The position numbers and the translations under genes were made by a program. The notes under the pieces are model-generated. The model worked only from the letters and a program-made list of their open reading frames with translations, was not told where the DNA came from and did not search any database. DNA of 40,342 nt from Fastidiosipila sp. (lineage in GTDB: Bacteria > Bacillota > Clostridia > Saccharofermentanales > DTU023), in assembly GCA_012511175.1 (NCBI GenBank), contig JAAZGO010000012.1, positions 1 through 40,342 of the forward strand. Reading direction: 5' to 3'. Below, one piece after another: positions 4,806 through 13,655 of the stretch; within the stretch, counting starts at the first letter, position 1; every line of letters starts with the position of its first letter.

Positions 4806-4917
4806 TGGTCCTGCCCTGTTTCGCCGCTCAAAATTAGTTTTCCCGGAATTCATCTCAAGGCCATCTTTATAGGCTATCCTTTAACATGTTTCAGTAGGGA
4901 CATTGGAAGGAAAGATC

Positions 4918-6504
4918 ATGAGCCAAGACAAAGTGAAATTACCGGCAAAAAGACGAAAATGGTGGCCCTGGGTCCTTGTGGTCCTCCTGGCCGCCTTGGT
5001 GACCGCGGTCGCGGTTATTCCGCCAAGACGCCAAGTTCCCGGGGCCAATATCCGCCAGGCCACTCTCGAAAGAGGAAGCCTGACGGTGACGGTGATCGGC
5101 ACGGGACAACTGGGCTACGATGAGTCATCGGAAATTGAGGTTCCGGCGGGTCTTCTGGTCGATCATATTTACTTTGATGCCGGCGATCAGGCAGCCCGTG
5201 GCGATCTGATGGCCACCTTTGATTCCCTGTCTATCCGGCTTGCCATCGACCGGGTCCTGTCAGAGATTGATAACCTTGACCTGGCCATCGCCCGGACGCC
5301 GGCCGATACCAGGGTCGTCCGCTCCGTGCAGGCGGGCCGTGTCAAGGCTATCTACATCGATAAAAACGATGAGGCTGCCACAGCTTACGAGAAGCATGGG
5401 GCGGCCCTCCTCCTGTCACTGGATGGCCGGATGGCGGTGACCTTTGAAAGTCCGGCTGAGCTGGAAAGGGATGACAAGCTCGAGATTCTTTTATCCGACG
5501 GTAGAAGCAGGGAAGGGACAGTTGAAAAGAGAGACAGGGGTGTGTATTCCGTCACCTTGACCGATGACGGCCCGGAGCCGGGCGAACGGGTCACGGTCAG
5601 GACGAAAGAGGGTGAAGAGCTTGGACAGGGTGATCTTTACGTCCACCGCCCGCTCGCCATCATTGCGACTGAAGGAAAAGTCAAGCAAATTCACGTTTCC
5701 AATAACCAGAAGATTTCCGCCGGCAAGGCCCTTTTCACCTTGGAGGACCTGCCTGCCGGCCCGGCCTATGACCAATTGTTTGCCGACCGGGAGGAATGGG
5801 AGAAAAAACTCCGCGAGCTTCTGGAATTGGAAAAAACAGGTGAACTGCGGGCACCTTTTGATCTCTTTGTATTAGATACCCGCCTCAAAGAGGGTGAGAA
5901 GACGGGTGAAAAGGCGGATATGGCCAATCGCCTGCAGGAAGCGGAGTCAGTTTTCCCCGCTTTCACGGTGGCACCGACCGGCCGCTTCGCCCTGTCCATC
6001 AATATTGATGAGCTCGATGTCCTCTCGGTCAGGAAAGGCCAGCAGGCAGCCATCACCTTTGACGCCATCGAGAACCAGGTCTTTGTGGGAACCATCGACC
6101 GTGTGGCAGCCGCCGCCATTGAGGCGGGAGGAATTGCCAAATACCCGGCCAGGATCCTGATCGAAGCCGATCAGCGGATGCGTCCCGGCATGAGTGTGAC
6201 GGCCACCATTACCGTTGATGAAAAGAAAGACATTTTGCTTCTTCCTGTTACCGCCCTCCAGGAAAGCGGCGGCCGCATTTTTGTCTACACGGCAAAAGAT
6301 GAGAAAAGCGGCAGCCTCACAGGTGAGGTAGATCTTGAAACGGGCCTTTCCGACGGCGACAGGGTTGAGATTACCGGGGGTCTGAGGGAAGGTGAGACCG
6401 TCTTCTACAAGGTAACAACCACGGACAACCTCTTTCCCTTCAGTCCGCCGGGTCACCGGACGGGGAGAAACAGCCAGGCCGGTGAAGGGACAGCCGATGA
6501 ATAA
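4918..6504 (+). CDS. HlyD/MacA-like adaptor subunit of an ABC transporter
   Basis: 528 residues from ATG 4918, chosen over the in-frame TTG at 4903 because the GGAAGGAAAG ribosome binding site sits between them. A Lys/Arg-rich start is followed by one membrane segment (~residues 15-34, WWPWVLVVLLAALVTAVAVI) and then an extracytoplasmic region. Lipoyl/barrel-sandwich-like stretches (LLVDHIYFDAGDQAARGD; GKVKQIHVSNNQKISAG) and a C-terminal beta-barrel domain ending RMRPGMSVTATI follow, typical of membrane-fusion proteins. It is first of three overlapping genes and by family links the MacB-like permease to substrate outside the membrane, as YknX does in Bacillus. It has two sandwich-like blocks and little obvious coiled coil, unlike classical MacA. 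Substrate unknown. Confidence 0.85.
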   Translation: MSQDKVKLPAKRRKWWPWVLVVLLAALVTAVAVIPPRRQVPGANIRQATLERGSLTVTVIGTGQLGYDESSEIEVPAGLLVDHIYFDAGDQAARGDLMATFDSLSIRLAIDRVLSEIDNLDLAIARTPADTRVVRSVQAGRVKAIYIDKNDEAATAYEKHGAALLLSLDGRMAVTFESPAELERDDKLEILLSDGRSREGTVEKRDRGVYSVTLTDDGPEPGERVTVRTKEGEELGQGDLYVHRPLAIIATEGKVKQIHVSNNQKISAGKALFTLEDLPAGPAYDQLFADREEWEKKLRELLELEKTGELRAPFDLFVLDTRLKEGEKTGEKADMANRLQEAESVFPAFTVAPTGRFALSINIDELDVLSVRKGQQAAITFDAIENQVFVGTIDRVAAAAIEAGGIAKYPARILIEADQRMRPGMSVTATITVDEKKDILLLPVTALQESGGRIFVYTAKDEKSGSLTGEVDLETGLSDGDRVEITGGLREGETVFYKVTTTDNLFPFSPPGHRTGRNSQAGEGTADE

Positions 6505-7183
6505 ACTCATGATCGAACTTCATGACGTATCCAAGATCTACCAGGTTGGCGGTCAGGAGGTCCGGGCGCTTGACCAGGCCTCGCTGACGGTCCGGGAAGG
6601 GGAATTCGTCAGTATTGTCGGTCCCTCGGGCAGCGGCAAAACCACCATGATGAATATCATCGGCTGTCTGGATGTGGCGGACAGTGGCCAATACATCCTG
6701 GACGGCCTGCCCATTGACCGCTATTCCGACCGGGAACTGGCCGCAATCCGCAATCGCAAGATCGGATTTGTTTTCCAGGGGTTCAACCTGCTTTCCAGGC
6801 TGACTGCGGAGGCCAATGTGGAGTTGCCGCTGATTTATCAGCGGCTGGCCATGGGTGACCGCAAAAAGCTGGTCAATGAAGCCTTGCAGCGCGTCGACCT
6901 TTATGACAGACGCAAACACAAACCTCAAGAGCTGTCCGGCGGCCAGCAGCAGCGGGTTGCCATTGCCCGGGCCCTGGTGACCAGGCCCTCCCTCCTGCTG
7001 GCTGACGAACCGACAGGCAACCTTGACTCCAAGACAGGTGCCGAGATCATTGAATTATTCCATGAGCTGCACCAGTCAGGCAATACCATCCTGCTGATCA
7101 CCCACAATCCCGATATCGCAAAAACAGCAAGCCGCATGGTACATATTTTTGACGGCAAGGTCTACGAGGAGGCAAGGGCATGA
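6497..7183 (+). CDS. MacB/LolD-type ABC transporter ATP-binding protein
   Basis: 228 residues from ATG 6497, preferred over GTG 6482 because GAAGGGA lies six bases upstream of the ATG. All ABC ATPase motifs are intact: Walker A GPSGSGKT, signature LSGGQQQRVAIARAL, Walker B LLLADEPTGNLD and the switch histidine in LLITHN. It overlaps the adaptor gene by 8 bases and the permease by 4 (ATGA), so the three are almost certainly translated together. It energises the MacB-type permease at the inner face of the membrane. Confidence 0.95.
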   Translation: MNKLMIELHDVSKIYQVGGQEVRALDQASLTVREGEFVSIVGPSGSGKTTMMNIIGCLDVADSGQYILDGLPIDRYSDRELAAIRNRKIGFVFQGFNLLSRLTAEANVELPLIYQRLAMGDRKKLVNEALQRVDLYDRRKHKPQELSGGQQQRVAIARALVTRPSLLLADEPTGNLDSKTGAEIIELFHELHQSGNTILLITHNPDIAKTASRMVHIFDGKVYEEARA

Positions 7184-8361
7184 TCTTCCAATCCATCCGC
7201 ATGGCCTTTGACTCGATTACAGCCAACAAGATCCGTTCTTTTCTCACCATGCTGGGCATCATCATCGGGGTCATTGCCCTGGTCGTGCTGGTGTCCCTGG
7301 TCAGCAGCGCCTCCGACTCGGTCACGGAACAGGTCTCAACCCTGGGGACCGACCTTTTAACTACCATGGTCTTCGATGACAAGGGGCATCCACTGAAGCT
7401 GGCTGATCTTGACCAGCTCAAGTCCAACCCGGCCATCGGCCAGGCTGCCCCCCTGGTTCAAACCCTGGTTACCGCCCGGCACGGTTACACGGAGGAGCCG
7501 GCAACCCTCTATGGGACACTGCCTTCCTATGGGGAGATCCATCACTGGCAGATGCGGCAGGGCCGGTTTTTGAAGACAAGCGACATAGATAACAGTTCCT
7601 ACGTCGTCGTGCTCAGCCTTGAGGCGGCGGACAAGTTTTTTGGCCAGTCCGATCCCCTGAATGAAACCATGATGTTGAATGGCAGGCCATTCACGGTCGT
7701 GGGAGTCTTGGAGGAAGACACTTCCCTCATGAGCGTCATGACGACTTCTGTCAAGATCTACACGCCCTTCACGGTGCTGACCCGCATGTCCGGCGTGCGC
7801 GGGGGTATCTCCAATTTCATTGTCACGCCTTCCAACCCCAGAAGCATGGACGAGGCGGAGGAAGCCCTGACTTCCTTTTTGATGCGGCGCCTCAAGGAGG
7901 ATGACAGTGCCTTTTTCATCTTCAACCAGTCCAACCTGATGAGCGTGGTCGGAACGGTGACCGACATGCTGTCCTATTTGCTGGGCGGCATTGCCGCCAT
8001 TTCCCTCCTGGTCGGCGGCATCGGCATCATGAACATCATGCTGGTTTCAGTGACGGAACGGACCAAAGAGATCGGCATCCGCAAAGCTGTCGGCGCCGCC
8101 AGAGGCAGCATCCTCTTCCAGTTCCTGATCGAGGCCCTGGTGATCAGCCTCATGGGCTGCGCCATCGGTATTGTCTTATCCTTTGGCCTGCTCCGGGTTG
8201 CAACGCTGATTGCCGGGGGACTTATTGCTTTCCGTCTTTCGCTTGGGATCGTTTTAATCGCCATGGGCTTTGCGGTCATCATCGGCGTTCTTTTCGGCAT
8301 TTATCCTGCCTACAAGGCAGCCGGCAAACACCCCATCGAAGCCCTCAGATACGAAGGATAG
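7180..8361 (+). CDS. MacB/YknZ-type ABC transporter permease
   Basis: 393 residues. One N-terminal membrane helix (~19-45, FLTMLGIIIGVIALVVLVSL), a large extracytoplasmic MacB-type domain, then three C-terminal helices (~265-390) with the FtsX-family signature GGIGIMNIMLVSVTERTKEIGIRKAVGA. The start ATG overlaps the stop of the ATPase gene as ATGA. With its partners it forms a mechanotransmission-type ABC system; homologues export antimicrobial peptides, macrolides or toxins, but nothing here identifies the substrate. Last gene of the operon. Confidence 0.93.
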   Translation: MIFQSIRMAFDSITANKIRSFLTMLGIIIGVIALVVLVSLVSSASDSVTEQVSTLGTDLLTTMVFDDKGHPLKLADLDQLKSNPAIGQAAPLVQTLVTARHGYTEEPATLYGTLPSYGEIHHWQMRQGRFLKTSDIDNSSYVVVLSLEAADKFFGQSDPLNETMMLNGRPFTVVGVLEEDTSLMSVMTTSVKIYTPFTVLTRMSGVRGGISNFIVTPSNPRSMDEAEEALTSFLMRRLKEDDSAFFIFNQSNLMSVVGTVTDMLSYLLGGIAAISLLVGGIGIMNIMLVSVTERTKEIGIRKAVGAARGSILFQFLIEALVISLMGCAIGIVLSFGLLRVATLIAGGLIAFRLSLGIVLIAMGFAVIIGVLFGIYPAYKAAGKHPIEALRYEG

Positions 8362-8380: not shown

Positions 8381-8410
8381 TTGGGAAACCATTCAATTAT
8401 TTGCTATAAT
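8381..8410 (+). promoter_or_regulatory. Probable promoter of the opine dehydrogenase/B12 operon
   Basis: TTGGGA (8381-8386) and a perfect TATAAT (8405-8410) are spaced by 18 bases, 20 bases after the permease stop codon. Transcription would begin near 8417, giving a leader of about 150 nt before the ATG at 8569. Confidence 0.6.
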
Positions 8411-8456
8411 ATGAACCTGACGTAATTGTTTAACAGCCGCTCCACAGGCGAACCGG

Positions 8457-8488
8457 GGGCATGCGCACCGCATTTGCCCAGGTTTTTT
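8457..8488 (+). terminator. Intrinsic terminator-like hairpin in the leader of the opine dehydrogenase gene
   Basis: GGGC+ATGCG (8457-8465) pairs with CGCAT+GCCC (8469-8479) around a CAC loop, with a two-T bulge. AGG and six T follow (8483-8488). It lies about 40 nt downstream of the proposed start site and 80 nt upstream of the gene. It could either end the ABC transporter transcript or act as an attenuator for the downstream unit. No competing antiterminator hairpin was convincingly found. Confidence 0.6.
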
Positions 8489-8568
8489 AGCAATCTGACA
8501 AACTGATCCATCACTTTGATTCTTGCGGCCCGGGGGCGGTGCATCTTTTGCGAACAGGGGGAGTCCCT

Positions 8569-9654
8569 ATGAGAGTTACTGTCGTCGGGGCGGGTAATTC
8601 CGGCTTGGCCATGGCTGCGCATGTTAGCTTGGGCGGCCATCAGGTCACTTTATGGAACCGGACCCGATCATCCATCGAAAGACTGATTGATCACCCGGTC
8701 ATTCATTGTGACGGTGTCATCAGCGGGCACATTCCCATCCATCGGGCAACCAGCGATATCTCCATTGCCCTGGAGGATCCCGACCTGATTCTGATCACAA
8801 CACCTGCCTACGCGCATCGGGATCTGGCAGATCTGATCGCCAGGAACATCAGCAGGGAAACACTGATTCTTCTGAACCCTGGAAGGACTTTCGGCGCCCT
8901 GGAGTTCCGGATGATCTACGAGAAGGCCAATCCAAAACTCCCCCAGACCATCGCCGAGGCACAGACCATCATCTACACCTGCCGCAGGACCGGGGCTGAC
9001 ACAGTCCACATAGTCGCCTTGAAATCCGATGTACTCCTTTCTACTTTCAAAGCCAGTGACAATGCGGCCGTTATCGCCAGGCTCCCGGCCTGCATCAGGG
9101 ATTTTTTCATCCCGGCCCGTTCAATGATCGAGACGTCGATCGGCAATGTGGGCATGATCCTGCACTGCGCACCGTTGCTTTTAAATGCGGGCTGGACGGA
9201 AAACGAAACAAATATCTACAAGTACTATTACGACGGAATCACGCCGACCATCAGCGGGCTTCTCGAAAAACTGGACCATGAGCGCATCGGTGTCTCGCGG
9301 GCGCTCGATCATCGGGTTGAAACAACCAGGGAATGGTTGAAGCGGACCTACCACATCACGGGCGAAACCCTTTATGAATGTCTTCAAAATAATGAAGCCT
9401 ACAAGAAAATTGATGCCCCCCAGACCCTGCAGCACCGCTACATCCTGGAGGATGTGCCGTGCGGTCTGGTTCCTCTGGAAGCCGTCGGTCTGGCCCACGG
9501 GGTCGACATGTCTCACACCAGCCTGATCATCGACCTGGCGTCCAGACTCATGGGAATCGATTTTCGAAAAGGCGGACGCAATTTGGAGAGCCTGGGGCTG
9601 GGGAAAGGTAAGCAATGCCTGCATGACCTGATGGAAGAGCTGCCTGATGCATAG
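8569..9654 (+). CDS. Opine (octopine/nopaline) dehydrogenase family enzyme
   Basis: 361 residues from ATG 8569, preceded by AGGGGGAG at five bases; an upstream in-frame GTG at 8539 lacks a site. Residues 1-30 are a Rossmann nucleotide-binding motif with GAGNSG (7-12). The C-terminal half matches the octopine dehydrogenase domain: LHCAPLLLNAG (likely catalytic His199), YYDGITP (220-226), then HRYILEDVPCGLVPLEAVG and a final GGRNLESLGL. By family such enzymes reversibly and reductively join an amino acid with a 2-oxo acid using NAD(P)H, or act on similar N-(carboxyalkyl) or 2-hydroxy/oxo substrates. It overlaps the next gene by 8 bases, so the two products probably act on one pathway. No nicotianamine-synthase-like or racemase gene of a metallophore cluster is nearby. 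Substrate unknown. Confidence 0.85.
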   Translation: MRVTVVGAGNSGLAMAAHVSLGGHQVTLWNRTRSSIERLIDHPVIHCDGVISGHIPIHRATSDISIALEDPDLILITTPAYAHRDLADLIARNISRETLILLNPGRTFGALEFRMIYEKANPKLPQTIAEAQTIIYTCRRTGADTVHIVALKSDVLLSTFKASDNAAVIARLPACIRDFFIPARSMIETSIGNVGMILHCAPLLLNAGWTENETNIYKYYYDGITPTISGLLEKLDHERIGVSRALDHRVETTREWLKRTYHITGETLYECLQNNEAYKKIDAPQTLQHRYILEDVPCGLVPLEAVGLAHGVDMSHTSLIIDLASRLMGIDFRKGGRNLESLGLGKGKQCLHDLMEELPDA

Positions 9655-11569
9655 GGGGGATGGTCCGGTTTACGGCCTGATCAAGCCCTCTGCCGATGCC
9701 CACACCCTGGGAATACACACAGTCGCCGAACTGCTGGGCGAATGCGGCTATCAGGTAGTCCATGCCGGCCAGGAAGCTGCCGGAGCGCTCAGTCTCTGCA
9801 TGCATGAGGCCAAGCGCCGGCTGGTGATCGACTGGATCGTAAAAAGCAAGATCCGGAGGCTGGGAATCAGCTACCGCCTAGATGAAGAAGATGCCATCCA
9901 TATGGTGGGTTATCTGGTCGAAGCGCTCAAAGAGCGGCGCCTATTCTCCTTTCAGGGGGGCCCGCTGGACCTGCTTTTTTTTGCCGGCCTGCCCGCAGCC
10001 TGTGAAGCCATCCATAATGCCCATGGCGGCCTGGTCGTAACCTTCAAGGGAGGGGAGACGCCGGAAGAGACCCTGGAGAAAATGGGCGTTCCCGCGGATC
10101 GCATCCCCCCCGAGCTTCAGGAAAGCAGCCTCTATGACCGGGCCAGGCTTGACTTTGGCAAATGGCTCATTGATTCACAGGGCTACACCGCCCATCCGTT
10201 TCCGGATCGGTCCGGCTATCGGGAGTACGGAAGCCGGAGCGATACGCTGACCCGAAGGCTTGACGCCAACCGGGCCCCCCGCTCCGAACCCTTGATCAGG
10301 GCGCATGCCGGCCCTTACTCTTCTTTGGTTTCCCGGGAGGAATCCGTTTCGGAATTTATCCGGTGGGCCAAGGAACTGGCGCAGGGAGGTTTTCTGGACA
10401 TTCTCTCCATCGGCAGCTCCCAGCTGACCCAATCCAATTTTGGCGAGGACTGGGGGGATCAACCGAACGGCGGAGGTGTTCCCGTCAATTCACCGGATGA
10501 ATACCGGATGATCTACCAGGCGTCAAGGCCGATGCTGGTGAGAACCTACGCCGGCACAAAAAATATCCCCCAACTGGCCCGCATGCACGAAGAAACCATG
10601 AACATCTGCTGGCACGCCCTGTCCCTGTGGTGGTTCAATCAGCTGGACGGACGGGGTCCCTATGACCTCTACACCAATCTGCAGCAACACACGGAAACCC
10701 TGGACTTTATCGCGGAAACCCGCAAACCTTTCGAAGCCAATGTTCCCCACCATTTCGCCTTCCGGGGGGCAGATGATGTGACTTACATCGTTTCAGGCTA
10801 CCTGGCAGCCAAACTGGCCAAGCAAAAGGGGATCAGGACCTTCATCCTCCAAACCATGCTGAACACGCCCCGGATGACCTGGGGGATCCGGGACCTGGCC
10901 AAGACGCGGGCGCTCCTCAAGATGGTCAAAACCCTGGAAGATCCCGACTTCAGGCTTATCCTCCAGCCCAGGGCCGGCCTCGACTATTTCAAGCCTGATC
11001 TCTATGAAGCCAGGATCCAGCTGGCCGCCGTGACCGCCCTCATGGACGACATTGAACCCCGCGATGAATCCAGTCCGCCCCTTGTCCATGTGGTCAGTTA
11101 CTCCGAGGCCTCACACCTGGCGACACCGGCAATTATCGGGGAGAGTGTCCGGATTTCCCTGTCCGCCCTCAATCAATACCGGGATTTAAGGCGAAAAGGG
11201 GATGTTGACGATATGGGGAGGCATGCCGGTGTTGAGGTGCAGGCAGCTGAACTGATCCGGGAGGCCCGCGCGATTGTCCGGGCCATTGAAAACTCGATCC
11301 CGGACCCCTACAGCGCGGAAGGTTTTTATACGCTCTTTACAGCCGGTTTTCTGCCCGTTCCCTACCTCTGGGGTGACCGGGAAGAATTCAGACGTGCCAA
11401 AGACTGGGTTTCCAAGCCGATCAAAGGGGGGATCCGGCTGGTCGACCCGCAGACTTCATCGGTACTGACCGTGGGTGACCGGATCACCAAGGCGCAAAGC
11501 CATCTGGATGAGGCCCGCTACCTTCTGCGCCAGCGGATGGCAGAGAACCCGCCCCTATCTGATCTTTGA
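9647..11569 (+). CDS. B12-binding protein with long C-terminal region, possibly a mutase barrel
   Basis: 640 residues. The N-terminus carries a B12-binding signature: DxHxxG as DAHTLG (Asp17, His19, Gly22), an SxL-like stretch (GISYRLDE, 73-80) and the late GG in FKGGETPEETLEKMGVPADR (~133-152). This implies base-off/His-on cobalamin binding. Residues ~190-600 alternate strands and helices and include GGGVPVNSP, ANVPHHFAFRGADDVTY and TMLNTPRMTWGIRDLAKTRA. They look like a large alpha/beta barrel of the size of glutamate mutase E, but I do not recognise the family with certainty. The inferred role is a coenzyme-B12-dependent rearrangement; a B12-dependent methyl transfer is an alternative. The gene is translationally coupled to the opine dehydrogenase and its end overlaps the convergent HMA gene by 15 bases. 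Confidence 0.7.
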   Translation: MHRGDGPVYGLIKPSADAHTLGIHTVAELLGECGYQVVHAGQEAAGALSLCMHEAKRRLVIDWIVKSKIRRLGISYRLDEEDAIHMVGYLVEALKERRLFSFQGGPLDLLFFAGLPAACEAIHNAHGGLVVTFKGGETPEETLEKMGVPADRIPPELQESSLYDRARLDFGKWLIDSQGYTAHPFPDRSGYREYGSRSDTLTRRLDANRAPRSEPLIRAHAGPYSSLVSREESVSEFIRWAKELAQGGFLDILSIGSSQLTQSNFGEDWGDQPNGGGVPVNSPDEYRMIYQASRPMLVRTYAGTKNIPQLARMHEETMNICWHALSLWWFNQLDGRGPYDLYTNLQQHTETLDFIAETRKPFEANVPHHFAFRGADDVTYIVSGYLAAKLAKQKGIRTFILQTMLNTPRMTWGIRDLAKTRALLKMVKTLEDPDFRLILQPRAGLDYFKPDLYEARIQLAAVTALMDDIEPRDESSPPLVHVVSYSEASHLATPAIIGESVRISLSALNQYRDLRRKGDVDDMGRHAGVEVQAAELIREARAIVRAIENSIPDPYSAEGFYTLFTAGFLPVPYLWGDREEFRRAKDWVSKPIKGGIRLVDPQTSSVLTVGDRITKAQSHLDEARYLLRQRMAENPPLSDL

Positions 11570-11782
11570 CTTCACAACTTCGAAGCCGACCCGGTCGATG
11601 GCATTTTCAATGTCCCGGAGGGTCACTTGTGTCTCGTCGAAGTCGAGTTTGGCCCGGCTGGAGCTAAATGAGACGGTGACGGATTCTCCTTCAACGCCAT
11701 CAAGTTGCTTCAAGGCTGCTGCGATCTTTTGGGAACAGGAAGGGCAGATCAGTGTTTCCAACTGGATGATTGCAGATTTCAT
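11555..11782 (-). CDS. Stand-alone heavy-metal-associated (HMA) domain protein
   Basis: 75 residues, a single ferredoxin-like HMA fold: LETLICPSCSQKIAAALKQL carries the metal-binding CxxC (CPSC), followed by GVEGESVTVSF and a C-terminal AIDRVGFEV. Small cytoplasmic metal chaperones of the CopZ type look like this and hand metal to P1B ATPases. It lies 10 bases downstream of the ATPase gene, which lacks its own N-terminal HMA domain, so it probably supplies that function in trans. The residue before the first Cys is Ile rather than the usual Thr/His of the GMTCxxC motif. The metal is unknown. Confidence 0.85.
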   Translation of the reverse strand: MKSAIIQLETLICPSCSQKIAAALKQLDGVEGESVTVSFSSSRAKLDFDETQVTLRDIENAIDRVGFEVVKSKIR

Positions 11783-11792
11783 GCATTCTCCT

Positions 11793-13655
11793 TCATTTTC
11801 TCAGTTTGTAGCCTAACAATCTCATACCGTTTAAGATGACTGCCAGGATGCTGCCTTCGTGAACCAGCATGCCGATGGACATGTTCATCCAGTCACCGAA
11901 GAGGACGCTGGCAAGCAGGGCAAAGACGACCCCGACGGCGATGACCATATTCTGCGTCATATTCCGAACCGTCGCCTTGGCCAGCCCCAAGGCGTGGGGC
12001 AGCCGGTTGAAATCGGAATTCATCAGAACAACATTGGATGTTTCAATGGCAACCTCCGTGCCGCTTCCCATGGCGATCCCGATCTGGGCCAAGGCCAGGG
12101 AGGGGCTGTCGTTGACGCCGTCGCCGACAAAGGCGATGATCTCGCCCCGGTCAATCCTTTCCTTGATGTAGGCCGACTTGTCCTGGGGCAGCATCTTTCC
12201 CAGAGCCTTGGTCAAACCCAGCTCCCGGGCAATGACATCGACGGTGCCCTGGTTGTCGCCTGACAGCATGATGAGTTTTTTTACGCCCAGCCGTTTGATC
12301 CGTTCGAGGCTTTCCCGGACGCCGGGGCGGACCTGATCCCGGATTCCCATCAGCACCTTCAGCTCGCCGTCCACGGCCGCCAGTACCAGTGAGTTGCCGG
12401 CCGCCTCGAGGCGTAAAAGGTCGGTTTGGACCGCCTGGCTCAATTCAACCCCCTCACTTTGCATGAGCGCCGCATTGCCGACCAGCACGACATGTCCTCC
12501 AGCTGAGGACACGATACCGCCGCCCTTGACGACGTGGGTGGCGGTCACCTCCGAACGGGGGACCTCACCGATATTTTCCAGGACAGCCTTGGCCAGCGGA
12601 TGATCGGATTCGGCTTCGATGCTGGCCAGCAAACTAAGAGCCTGGTCGGCCTGATCCCCATAGACGATTTTTTCTGAAACGGACGGATTGCCGGCCGTCA
12701 GGGTCCCCGTCTTGTCAAAGACCATCCGGTCGAGCCGGCTGAAATCCCGGATGACCTCGCTCCCTTTCAAAAGGATGCCGTGAGCGGCCCCGTTGCCAAT
12801 GCCCGCGACGTTTGAGACGGGTACTCCGATCACCAGGGCGCCGGGACAGCCGAGCACCAGGATGGTGATGGCAAGTTCAACATTTTTGGTGAAAAACCAG
12901 ACCAGGAGGGCCGTCAGCAGGATGGCAGGGGTGTAATACCGGGAGAACCGGTCGATGAAGCGTTCGGCCCGTGACTTGGAGTCCTGAGCCTCCTCGACAA
13001 GCTCAATGATCTTGCCGAAGGTCGTATCTTCGCCGACGCGGTCAGCCTCGATCTGCAGGGTGCCATTATCGAGCAGGGTACCGGCGTAGACCAGGGAGTT
13101 TTTTTCTTTGGCGGCCGGCATGGACTCACCGGTAATGCTGGCCTCGTTGACACTTCCCTCACCAAACAAAACCCTGCCGTCGACCGGCACGCGGGCGCCC
13201 GTCTTCACCAGCAGGACATCGCCGATGTCGACATCGACGATATCGACTTCCACGAAGTTCCCGTCCTCCATCCTCTTCCAGGCAGTATCCGGAGCCATTT
13301 CGGTCAGGGCTTTGATGGCGGACCGTGTCTTATTCAAGGTTCGCTGTTCAAGGTAAGCGCCGAAAAGAAAGAGGAAGGTGACCACGGCTGATTCCTCAAA
13401 GTTTTGAATGGCAAAGGCACCCGCAACTGCCAGCGTGACCAGCACATCAATACTGACCACCTTGACACGCAGGGACTGCCAGGCCTGGATGGCGATGGGA
13501 ATCAGGCCCAGGATGGAAGCCATGATCAGGGCGACGTGGGTGAAGAGCACCGGGCCGCCCGTCCACTTGACCACGAAAGCCGCGGCAATCAGGACTCCAC
13601 TGACAAGGGCAATGCTGTTCTTATTCTTCAGGATGGCCCGTTGGATTTTTCGCAT
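11793..13655 (-). CDS. Heavy-metal P1B-type ATPase with a CPG transmembrane motif
   Basis: 620 residues. Motifs: TGES (175-178), the membrane metal-site motif CPG (270-272, in LGCPGALVIGVPVS), phosphorylation site DKTGTLT (314-320), the HP dipeptide (352-353) typical of heavy-metal pumps, and GDGVND (511-516). Several hydrophobic segments flank these. There is no N-terminal HMA domain. It should move a transition metal across the cell membrane using ATP. CPG in place of CPC, CPH or SPC makes the ion hard to predict. Its start codon overlaps the stop of the upstream small gene by one base (TAATG), and the HMA protein follows, so the three form one unit. Confidence 0.92.
   Translation of the reverse strand: MRKIQRAILKNKNSIALVSGVLIAAAFVVKWTGGPVLFTHVALIMASILGLIPIAIQAWQSLRVKVVSIDVLVTLAVAGAFAIQNFEESAVVTFLFLFGAYLEQRTLNKTRSAIKALTEMAPDTAWKRMEDGNFVEVDIVDVDIGDVLLVKTGARVPVDGRVLFGEGSVNEASITGESMPAAKEKNSLVYAGTLLDNGTLQIEADRVGEDTTFGKIIELVEEAQDSKSRAERFIDRFSRYYTPAILLTALLVWFFTKNVELAITILVLGCPGALVIGVPVSNVAGIGNGAAHGILLKGSEVIRDFSRLDRMVFDKTGTLTAGNPSVSEKIVYGDQADQALSLLASIEAESDHPLAKAVLENIGEVPRSEVTATHVVKGGGIVSSAGGHVVLVGNAALMQSEGVELSQAVQTDLLRLEAAGNSLVLAAVDGELKVLMGIRDQVRPGVRESLERIKRLGVKKLIMLSGDNQGTVDVIARELGLTKALGKMLPQDKSAYIKERIDRGEIIAFVGDGVNDSPSLALAQIGIAMGSGTEVAIETSNVVLMNSDFNRLPHALGLAKATVRNMTQNMVIAVGVVFALLASVLFGDWMNMSIGMLVHEGSILAVILNGMRLLGYKLRK

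Follow-up and report, generated by a model that had tools for sequence, protein, structure and literature searches.

Organization of the locus

The DNA analyzed, hereafter the window, is a stretch of 40,342 nucleotides from a Fastidiosipila sp. contig, and contains two genes, ORF A and ORF B, whose coordinates are given in Table 1 together with those of associated features. A preliminary description, made from the sequence alone, had presented them as overlapping genes that stand apart from their neighbors. The overlap amounts to 8 bases (ORF B starts at 9647 and the stop codon of ORF A ends at 9654), and the isolation of the unit is equally apparent: 207 bp separate it from the MacB-type permease gene on its 5' side, and the genes downstream are convergent, on the minus strand. 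The upstream genes (4903-8358, plus strand) encode an HlyD-type adaptor, an ABC ATPase and the MacB-type permease, and form an ordinary efflux operon. The converging gene (11570-13655, minus strand) encodes a heavy-metal P-type ATPase and belongs to a separate metal-transport unit; a reading frame for a small CPSC metal-binding (HMA-like) protein is found just downstream of it, on the same strand.

Table 1. Coordinates of the two genes, their upstream region and the domains of ORF B
Feature	Position	Strand	Details
Possible sigma-70-type promoter	8381..8410	+	TTGGGA-18-TATAAT, extended TG; 10/12 matches in a consensus scan
Leader, 158 nt	8411..8568	+	G-rich ribosome-binding-like stretch just 5' of 8569
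ORF A	8569-9654	+	361 aa; ATG start at 8569, stop at 9652-9654
ORF B	9647-11569	+	640 aa; predicted adenosylcobalamin-type mutase, function uncharacterised
Cobalamin-binding domain, N-terminal part of ORF B	9647..10141	+	DxHxxG; B12-domain fold matches; PF02310
C-terminal TIM-barrel, residues 193-640 of ORF B	10223..11566	+	Glutamate mutase epsilon subunit homologue

A promoter shared by both genes had been proposed as well. The site listed in Table 1 keeps this proposal plausible, but weak, as a scan of the region yielded 2 sites where 1.9 are expected from shuffled sequences, and the site is thus not above chance. A search of the leader against Rfam, cobalamin and other riboswitches included, gave nothing up to E=1, and its RNA fold is not unusually stable (z-score -1.34). 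Nor did the whole window give any Rfam match at gathering score.

ORF A is a predicted opine dehydrogenase

ORF A is a predicted NAD(P)-dependent opine dehydrogenase of the CENDH type. The GAGNSG and octopine dehydrogenase C-terminal motifs reported earlier were both located: the former, a Rossmann motif with the GxGNxG pattern, occupies residues 7-12, while residues 183-328 match Octopine_DH (PF02317) with an E-value of 1.4e-43 (149 bits against a cut-off of 30). The top PDB chain is 1bg6, N-(1-D-carboxylethyl)-L-norvaline dehydrogenase (2.1e-65). Three catalytic-type residues, H199, R290 and D295, are invariant across 29 orthologues and align to CENDH (1bg6) and to octopine dehydrogenase (3c7a). 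The predicted activity would be the NAD(P)H-dependent reductive joining of an amino acid and a 2-oxo acid into an N-(carboxyalkyl) amino acid, that is, an opine.

ORF B combines a B12 domain and a glutamate-mutase-like barrel

Direct searches with the main domain of ORF B gave no Pfam, NCBIfam or PDB sequence match, and ORF B alone does not match PF06368. Structural modelling of the full protein reached a pLDDT of 88 and a pTM of 0.90. The DxHxxG cobalamin motif that had been noticed near its N terminus reads D17-A-H19-T-L-G22, with D17, H19 and G22 unchanged in all of 34 homologues. PF02310 matches 25 of the 34 members of the family (best E-value, 1.2e-5). When the N-terminal 161 residues were modelled alone (pLDDT 92), the top fold matches were B12 domains of adenosylcobalamin (AdoCbl) mutases (Z 14.5-12), the best of them a mutase B12 subunit (Z 14.5).

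The preliminary description had named a best structural match of the second protein to a known, unrelated enzyme of assigned function as an outcome that would count against its proposal. The best structural match of ORF B is instead the catalytic subunit of a B12 mutase, glutamate mutase E (Foldseek, 5e-10; VIA-align, 1cb7_B with Z 26.2, 375 residues aligned and rmsd 3.4). Lysine and ornithine aminomutases come next (Z 22-24), followed by methylmalonyl-CoA mutase (Z 18), and unrelated barrels score at Z about 16 and below. Homology was also examined with a clade profile that joins the ORF B family and a sister family found in the phylum sample, whose members (about 545-620 aa) share the architecture of ORF B, match PF02310 clearly and match PF06368 from weakly to above the Pfam cut-off, depending on the member. 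Compared with 58 MutE sequences, the profile gave a probability of 95.5 and an E-value of 1.6e-8 over 408 collinear columns, using a deeper, more diverse set in which the L183 row is a wrong-frame ORF and L184 and L185 look like other B12 mutases. Significance was obtained only with this deeper set; when the MutE set was shallow, neither HHalign nor hmmsearch gave a significant result, one comparison being suggestive.

In the profile alignment, which is uncertain by 1-2 positions, residues R66, R100, R149 and E171 of MutE, which bind the substrate, correspond to H220, Q262, Y301 and H323 of ORF B, and E330 of MutE aligns to E487. The PLP lysine of OraE and KamE lies 11 residues after the axial His; alignments of 34 ORF B-family and 18 sister-family sequences contain no conserved Lys at this position, which is occupied by L30 in ORF B and by A26 in the first sister-family sequence. 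The genome from which the window derives carries, in addition, a separate normal MutE and GlmL. Fold and profile homology, changed substrate residues, the missing PLP lysine and the separate MutE and GlmL together indicate that ORF B is a predicted AdoCbl enzyme of the glutamate mutase class, yet not glutamate mutase.

Divergent MutE-like proteins of a single family (PF06368, E about 1e-60) were also detected at loci L170-L173, in genomes that lack the mutase of the pair (G118, G162, G340 and G201). In the three with a listed dehydrogenase match (G118, G162 and G340), the dehydrogenase gene is not adjacent to the divergent MutE-like gene.

The two genes are inherited together

Conservation of the pair in other genomes had been set out as a test of the initial proposal, and the pair proved to be strongly conserved. 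In a sample of 398 genomes of the phylum, many of them metagenome-assembled drafts, the mutase superfamily is present in 86, the dehydrogenase in 109 and both in 85. Co-occurrence is therefore found in 85 of 86 genomes, with an odds ratio of 1020 and a Fisher P of 3e-63 in a test that assumes independent genomes, an assumption that does not hold here. Stronger evidence comes from the close adjacency of the two genes in many families. At the 87 mutase places in the sample, the dehydrogenase lies just upstream on the same strand in 79 and just downstream in 2; beyond these 81 neighbors, one further place (locus L114 of genome G121) has the dehydrogenase in the operon of the mutase, with a few genes between.

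A similar arrangement is found in the family of ORF B, where the dehydrogenase gene is directly upstream in 40 of 54 loci, the window included (4 loci are cut by contig ends, and a few represent the same sequence from two collections). Eight of the 50 resolvable loci have no dehydrogenase nearby; at L053 it lies 6 kb from the mutase, and at L032 an asparagine-synthetase-like gene sits between the two. The distance matrices of both proteins correlate (r 0.76 against a permutation maximum of 0.16, 47 loci), and shared species history contributes to this value. A plasmid search using the sister mutase found none. Altogether, these observations indicate that the dehydrogenase and mutase genes are a conserved metabolic unit.

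Ligases and other neighbors of the pair

A carboxylate-amine (amide-bond-forming) ligase is the recurrent third gene beside the pair in both mutase families. Three types were distinguished, which belong to unrelated or distantly related families although all are amide-bond formers: a divergent Ddl-like ATP-grasp protein (e.g., L021, L042, L051, L114-L121 and L127), an L-amino-acid-ligase-like ATP-grasp protein (L045 and L049) and an asparagine-synthetase-like protein of roughly 500 aa (L032, L101, L104, L111, L122 and L124). For the last type, a beta-lactam-synthetase identity was considered and rejected, the closest relative being AsnB. No ligase neighbors the pair in the window; the genome of the window has no asparagine-synthetase-like partner, and its sole clear Ddl-type match is weak (3e-29, 35%).

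At L114, which belongs to the sister family, the same operon includes GlmL, the glutamate-mutase accessory protein, and this lends indirect support to the predicted use of AdoCbl in radical turnover. The stretch between the ATP-grasp gene and the mutase gene encodes there a 4HBT hotdog protein (8554-9036) and the GlmL homologue (9055-10458). Other neighbors are limited to certain lineages, as in the case of glutamate dehydrogenase (L039-L041), amine oxidase (L036 and L134) and rhamnose genes (L049). At L037, L038 and L044, the pair is accompanied by a YbaK tRNA-editing domain and an EamA exporter; the YbaK/ProX-like domain is encoded directly 3' of the mutase (L037:7084-7554, L038:4587-5057 and L044:9918-10406), and the exporter gene is upstream and divergent. 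This arrangement possibly provides self-protection against an unusual amino acid. T-box leaders detected just 3' of the mutase gene at L022:2860-3404 and L042:8794-8992 are probably those of the genes that follow.

A c-di-AMP riboswitch precedes the unit in many relatives

In relatives of the window, the c-di-AMP riboswitch of Rfam (RF00379) is found directly 5' of the dehydrogenase gene at L100, L101, L103, L104, L105 and L032, the latter being a riboswitch-bearing member of the window's own mutase family. Of 80 genomes that bear the pair, 42 have such a riboswitch on the same strand and no more than 2 kb 5' of the dehydrogenase gene or of the operon that contains it, against about 0.05 expected under random placement. 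Ligase genes unlinked to the pair are likewise preceded by this riboswitch in G134, G212, G246, G323, G417 and G438. Nearly all members of the ORF B family lack it, and none was detected in the window or in its entire genome. At L103, two tandem c-di-AMP riboswitches (8549-8938, minus strand) precede one opine dehydrogenase gene.

Gene associations of c-di-AMP riboswitches are reportedly listed by Nelson in 2013 and Block in 2010. Such riboswitches lie 5' of genes for K+ transport, for the cell wall and for the synthesis and transport of osmoprotectants (PMC7288161, PMC7266159), and their presence before cell-wall genes is further documented (PMC8079986). A literature search of partial coverage on B12 mutases with opine dehydrogenases, or on ydaO with octopine, returned nothing relevant, and an earlier mention of the dehydrogenase under ydaO control is possible.

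Proposed function

The combination of enzymes suggests the following scheme. ORF B would bind adenosylcobalamin in the base-off/His-on mode through H19, and a 5'-deoxyadenosyl radical generated in its glutamate-mutase-like barrel would permit rearrangement of the carbon skeleton of an amino-acid-like acid, presumably other than glutamate. One of the two enzymes would make the substrate of the other, in either direction. The opine-type amino acid may then be amidated or extended, in many relatives, by a third enzyme of the ATP-grasp or asparagine-synthetase-like type. One candidate reaction allowed by known chemistry would be a glutamate-mutase-type rearrangement of a glutamate that carries an N-substituent (an opine derived from glutamate or 2-oxoglutarate); the glycyl radical that departs, being N-substituted, is well stabilised, which would make the step feasible.

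The pair probably makes a protective small molecule, since it is co-inherited in about one fifth of the sampled relatives, frequently with a salt-stress-associated RNA switch in control. In riboswitch-bearing relatives, the end product is most likely an osmolyte or another solute of osmotic homeostasis, a reading based on the c-di-AMP riboswitch and on a parallel with the osmolyte NAGGN; for the window's own genome, which has no riboswitch, an osmolyte role would be transferred from those relatives. The odds seem to us about even that the pair belongs to a B12-radical pathway to a solute of the opine type, which is often amidated, with c-di-AMP commonly providing osmotic control. We advance more tentatively, at somewhat less than an even chance, the idea of a widespread, undescribed pathway of anaerobic Firmicutes in which an AdoCbl radical mutase and an opine dehydrogenase yield a new compatible solute in the form of an imino diacid of the opine type, with amidation by a dedicated ligase and switching by c-di-AMP in many species.

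The initial interpretation, in which a B12-dependent rearrangement is coupled to the opine dehydrogenase, is thus supported in part. Conservation and fold make it the best reading; the chemical link, namely which enzyme makes the substrate of the other, is a conjecture, and the ligase partner and the c-di-AMP riboswitch of relatives point to osmolyte biosynthesis.

If true, the proposal would define a new AdoCbl mutase family, tied to a specific partner enzyme, that occurs in about one fifth of the sampled species of the phylum and for which neither Pfam nor NCBIfam has a name, and would disclose a B12-radical route to an osmolyte. Because of the riboswitch, the function can be tested directly through salt stress and metabolomics, and an osmolyte so far missed in anaerobes would be brought to light.

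Alternative explanations

Catabolism is an unlikely alternative, albeit the one that fares best: the pair would ferment an N-substituted amino acid, with rearrangement by the mutase and oxidative cleavage by the dehydrogenase into an amino acid and a 2-oxo acid. In known members of the families, each of these reactions can run in either direction, and a host endowed with glutamate mutase and GlmL looks like an amino-acid fermenter. However, the genes that recur beside the pair are amide-forming ligases and c-di-AMP riboswitches, and no uptake system recurs next to it.

As c-di-AMP riboswitches also control cell-wall genes (PMC8079986), an osmolyte is not the sole reading of their presence. The pair might supply an unusual amino acid, to be incorporated by the Ddl-like ligase into a peptide of peptidoglycan or of some other polymer of the cell surface. 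In agreement with this possibility, the ATP-grasp partner is closest to D-Ala-D-Ala ligase, and the pair of L049 lies within a rhamnose/polysaccharide cluster. Yet the four ATP-grasp partners tested (L021, L114, L118 and L121) score below Ddl cut-offs, that of L021 lacks the Ddl N-terminal domain, other genomes have asparagine-synthetase-like enzymes instead, and most pairs have no adjoining envelope genes, so that we regard an envelope role as rather improbable.

That ORF B might be a glutamate mutase isoform, and the unit a source of the opine of 3-methylaspartate, is suggested by the closest fold and by profile homology, but appears very unlikely given that the MutE substrate-binding residues are changed at the aligned positions and that the genome already has a normal MutE with GlmL. 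The least probable option, with a slight chance only, is that ORF B is a corrinoid methyltransferase, a use of the DxHxxG domain that the preliminary description had left open, or a PLP-dependent aminomutase: methyltransferase B12 domains are also similar and the fold matches next in rank are lysine and ornithine aminomutases, but AdoCbl mutases rank first for the barrel, E487 corresponds to E330 of MutE, the PLP lysine is absent in both mutase families and GlmL is found in one sister-family operon. An opine metallophore of the staphylopine type was also considered and rejected, as metallophore genes were not seen to recur beside the pair.

Comparison with known systems

The solute pathway that we favor has partial counterparts among known systems. 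ORF A shares with 1bg6 and octopine dehydrogenase (3c7a) the full-length fold family and the catalytic-type His, Arg and Asp, but differs from both in its linkage to a B12 mutase. Glutamate mutase (EC 5.4.99.1; MutE/GlmE with MutS/GlmS; PF06368, 1cb7) resembles ORF B in the TIM-barrel (Z 26), the fold of the B12 domain and a Glu equivalent to E330, and a GlmL-type accessory protein accompanies the pair in one sister-family operon. In contrast to glutamate mutase, ORF B is a single chain with the B12 domain fused at its N terminus, lacks the conserved substrate-binding Arg and Glu at the aligned positions and has an opine dehydrogenase as partner. D-ornithine 4,5-aminomutase and lysine 5,6-aminomutase (OraE, KamDE) share the AdoCbl barrel fold (Z 22-24) and a B12 domain; unlike them, ORF B has no PLP-binding lysine and a different domain order, and aminomutase accessory genes are absent.

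In pyrrolysine synthesis, PylB, PylC and PylD are a radical mutase, an ATP-grasp ligase and a dehydrogenase, PylB being a radical-SAM enzyme. Their logic is shared with the pair by analogy only, and no homology is claimed.

NAGGN, a known osmolyte, is the product of a ligase that acts with an asparagine-synthase-like enzyme (PMC8070244). Its pathway (AsnO/Ngg) resembles the units of relatives in that asparagine-synthetase-like and peptide-ligase enzymes lead to an amide osmolyte, and differs from the pair in that it involves neither an opine dehydrogenase nor a B12 enzyme.
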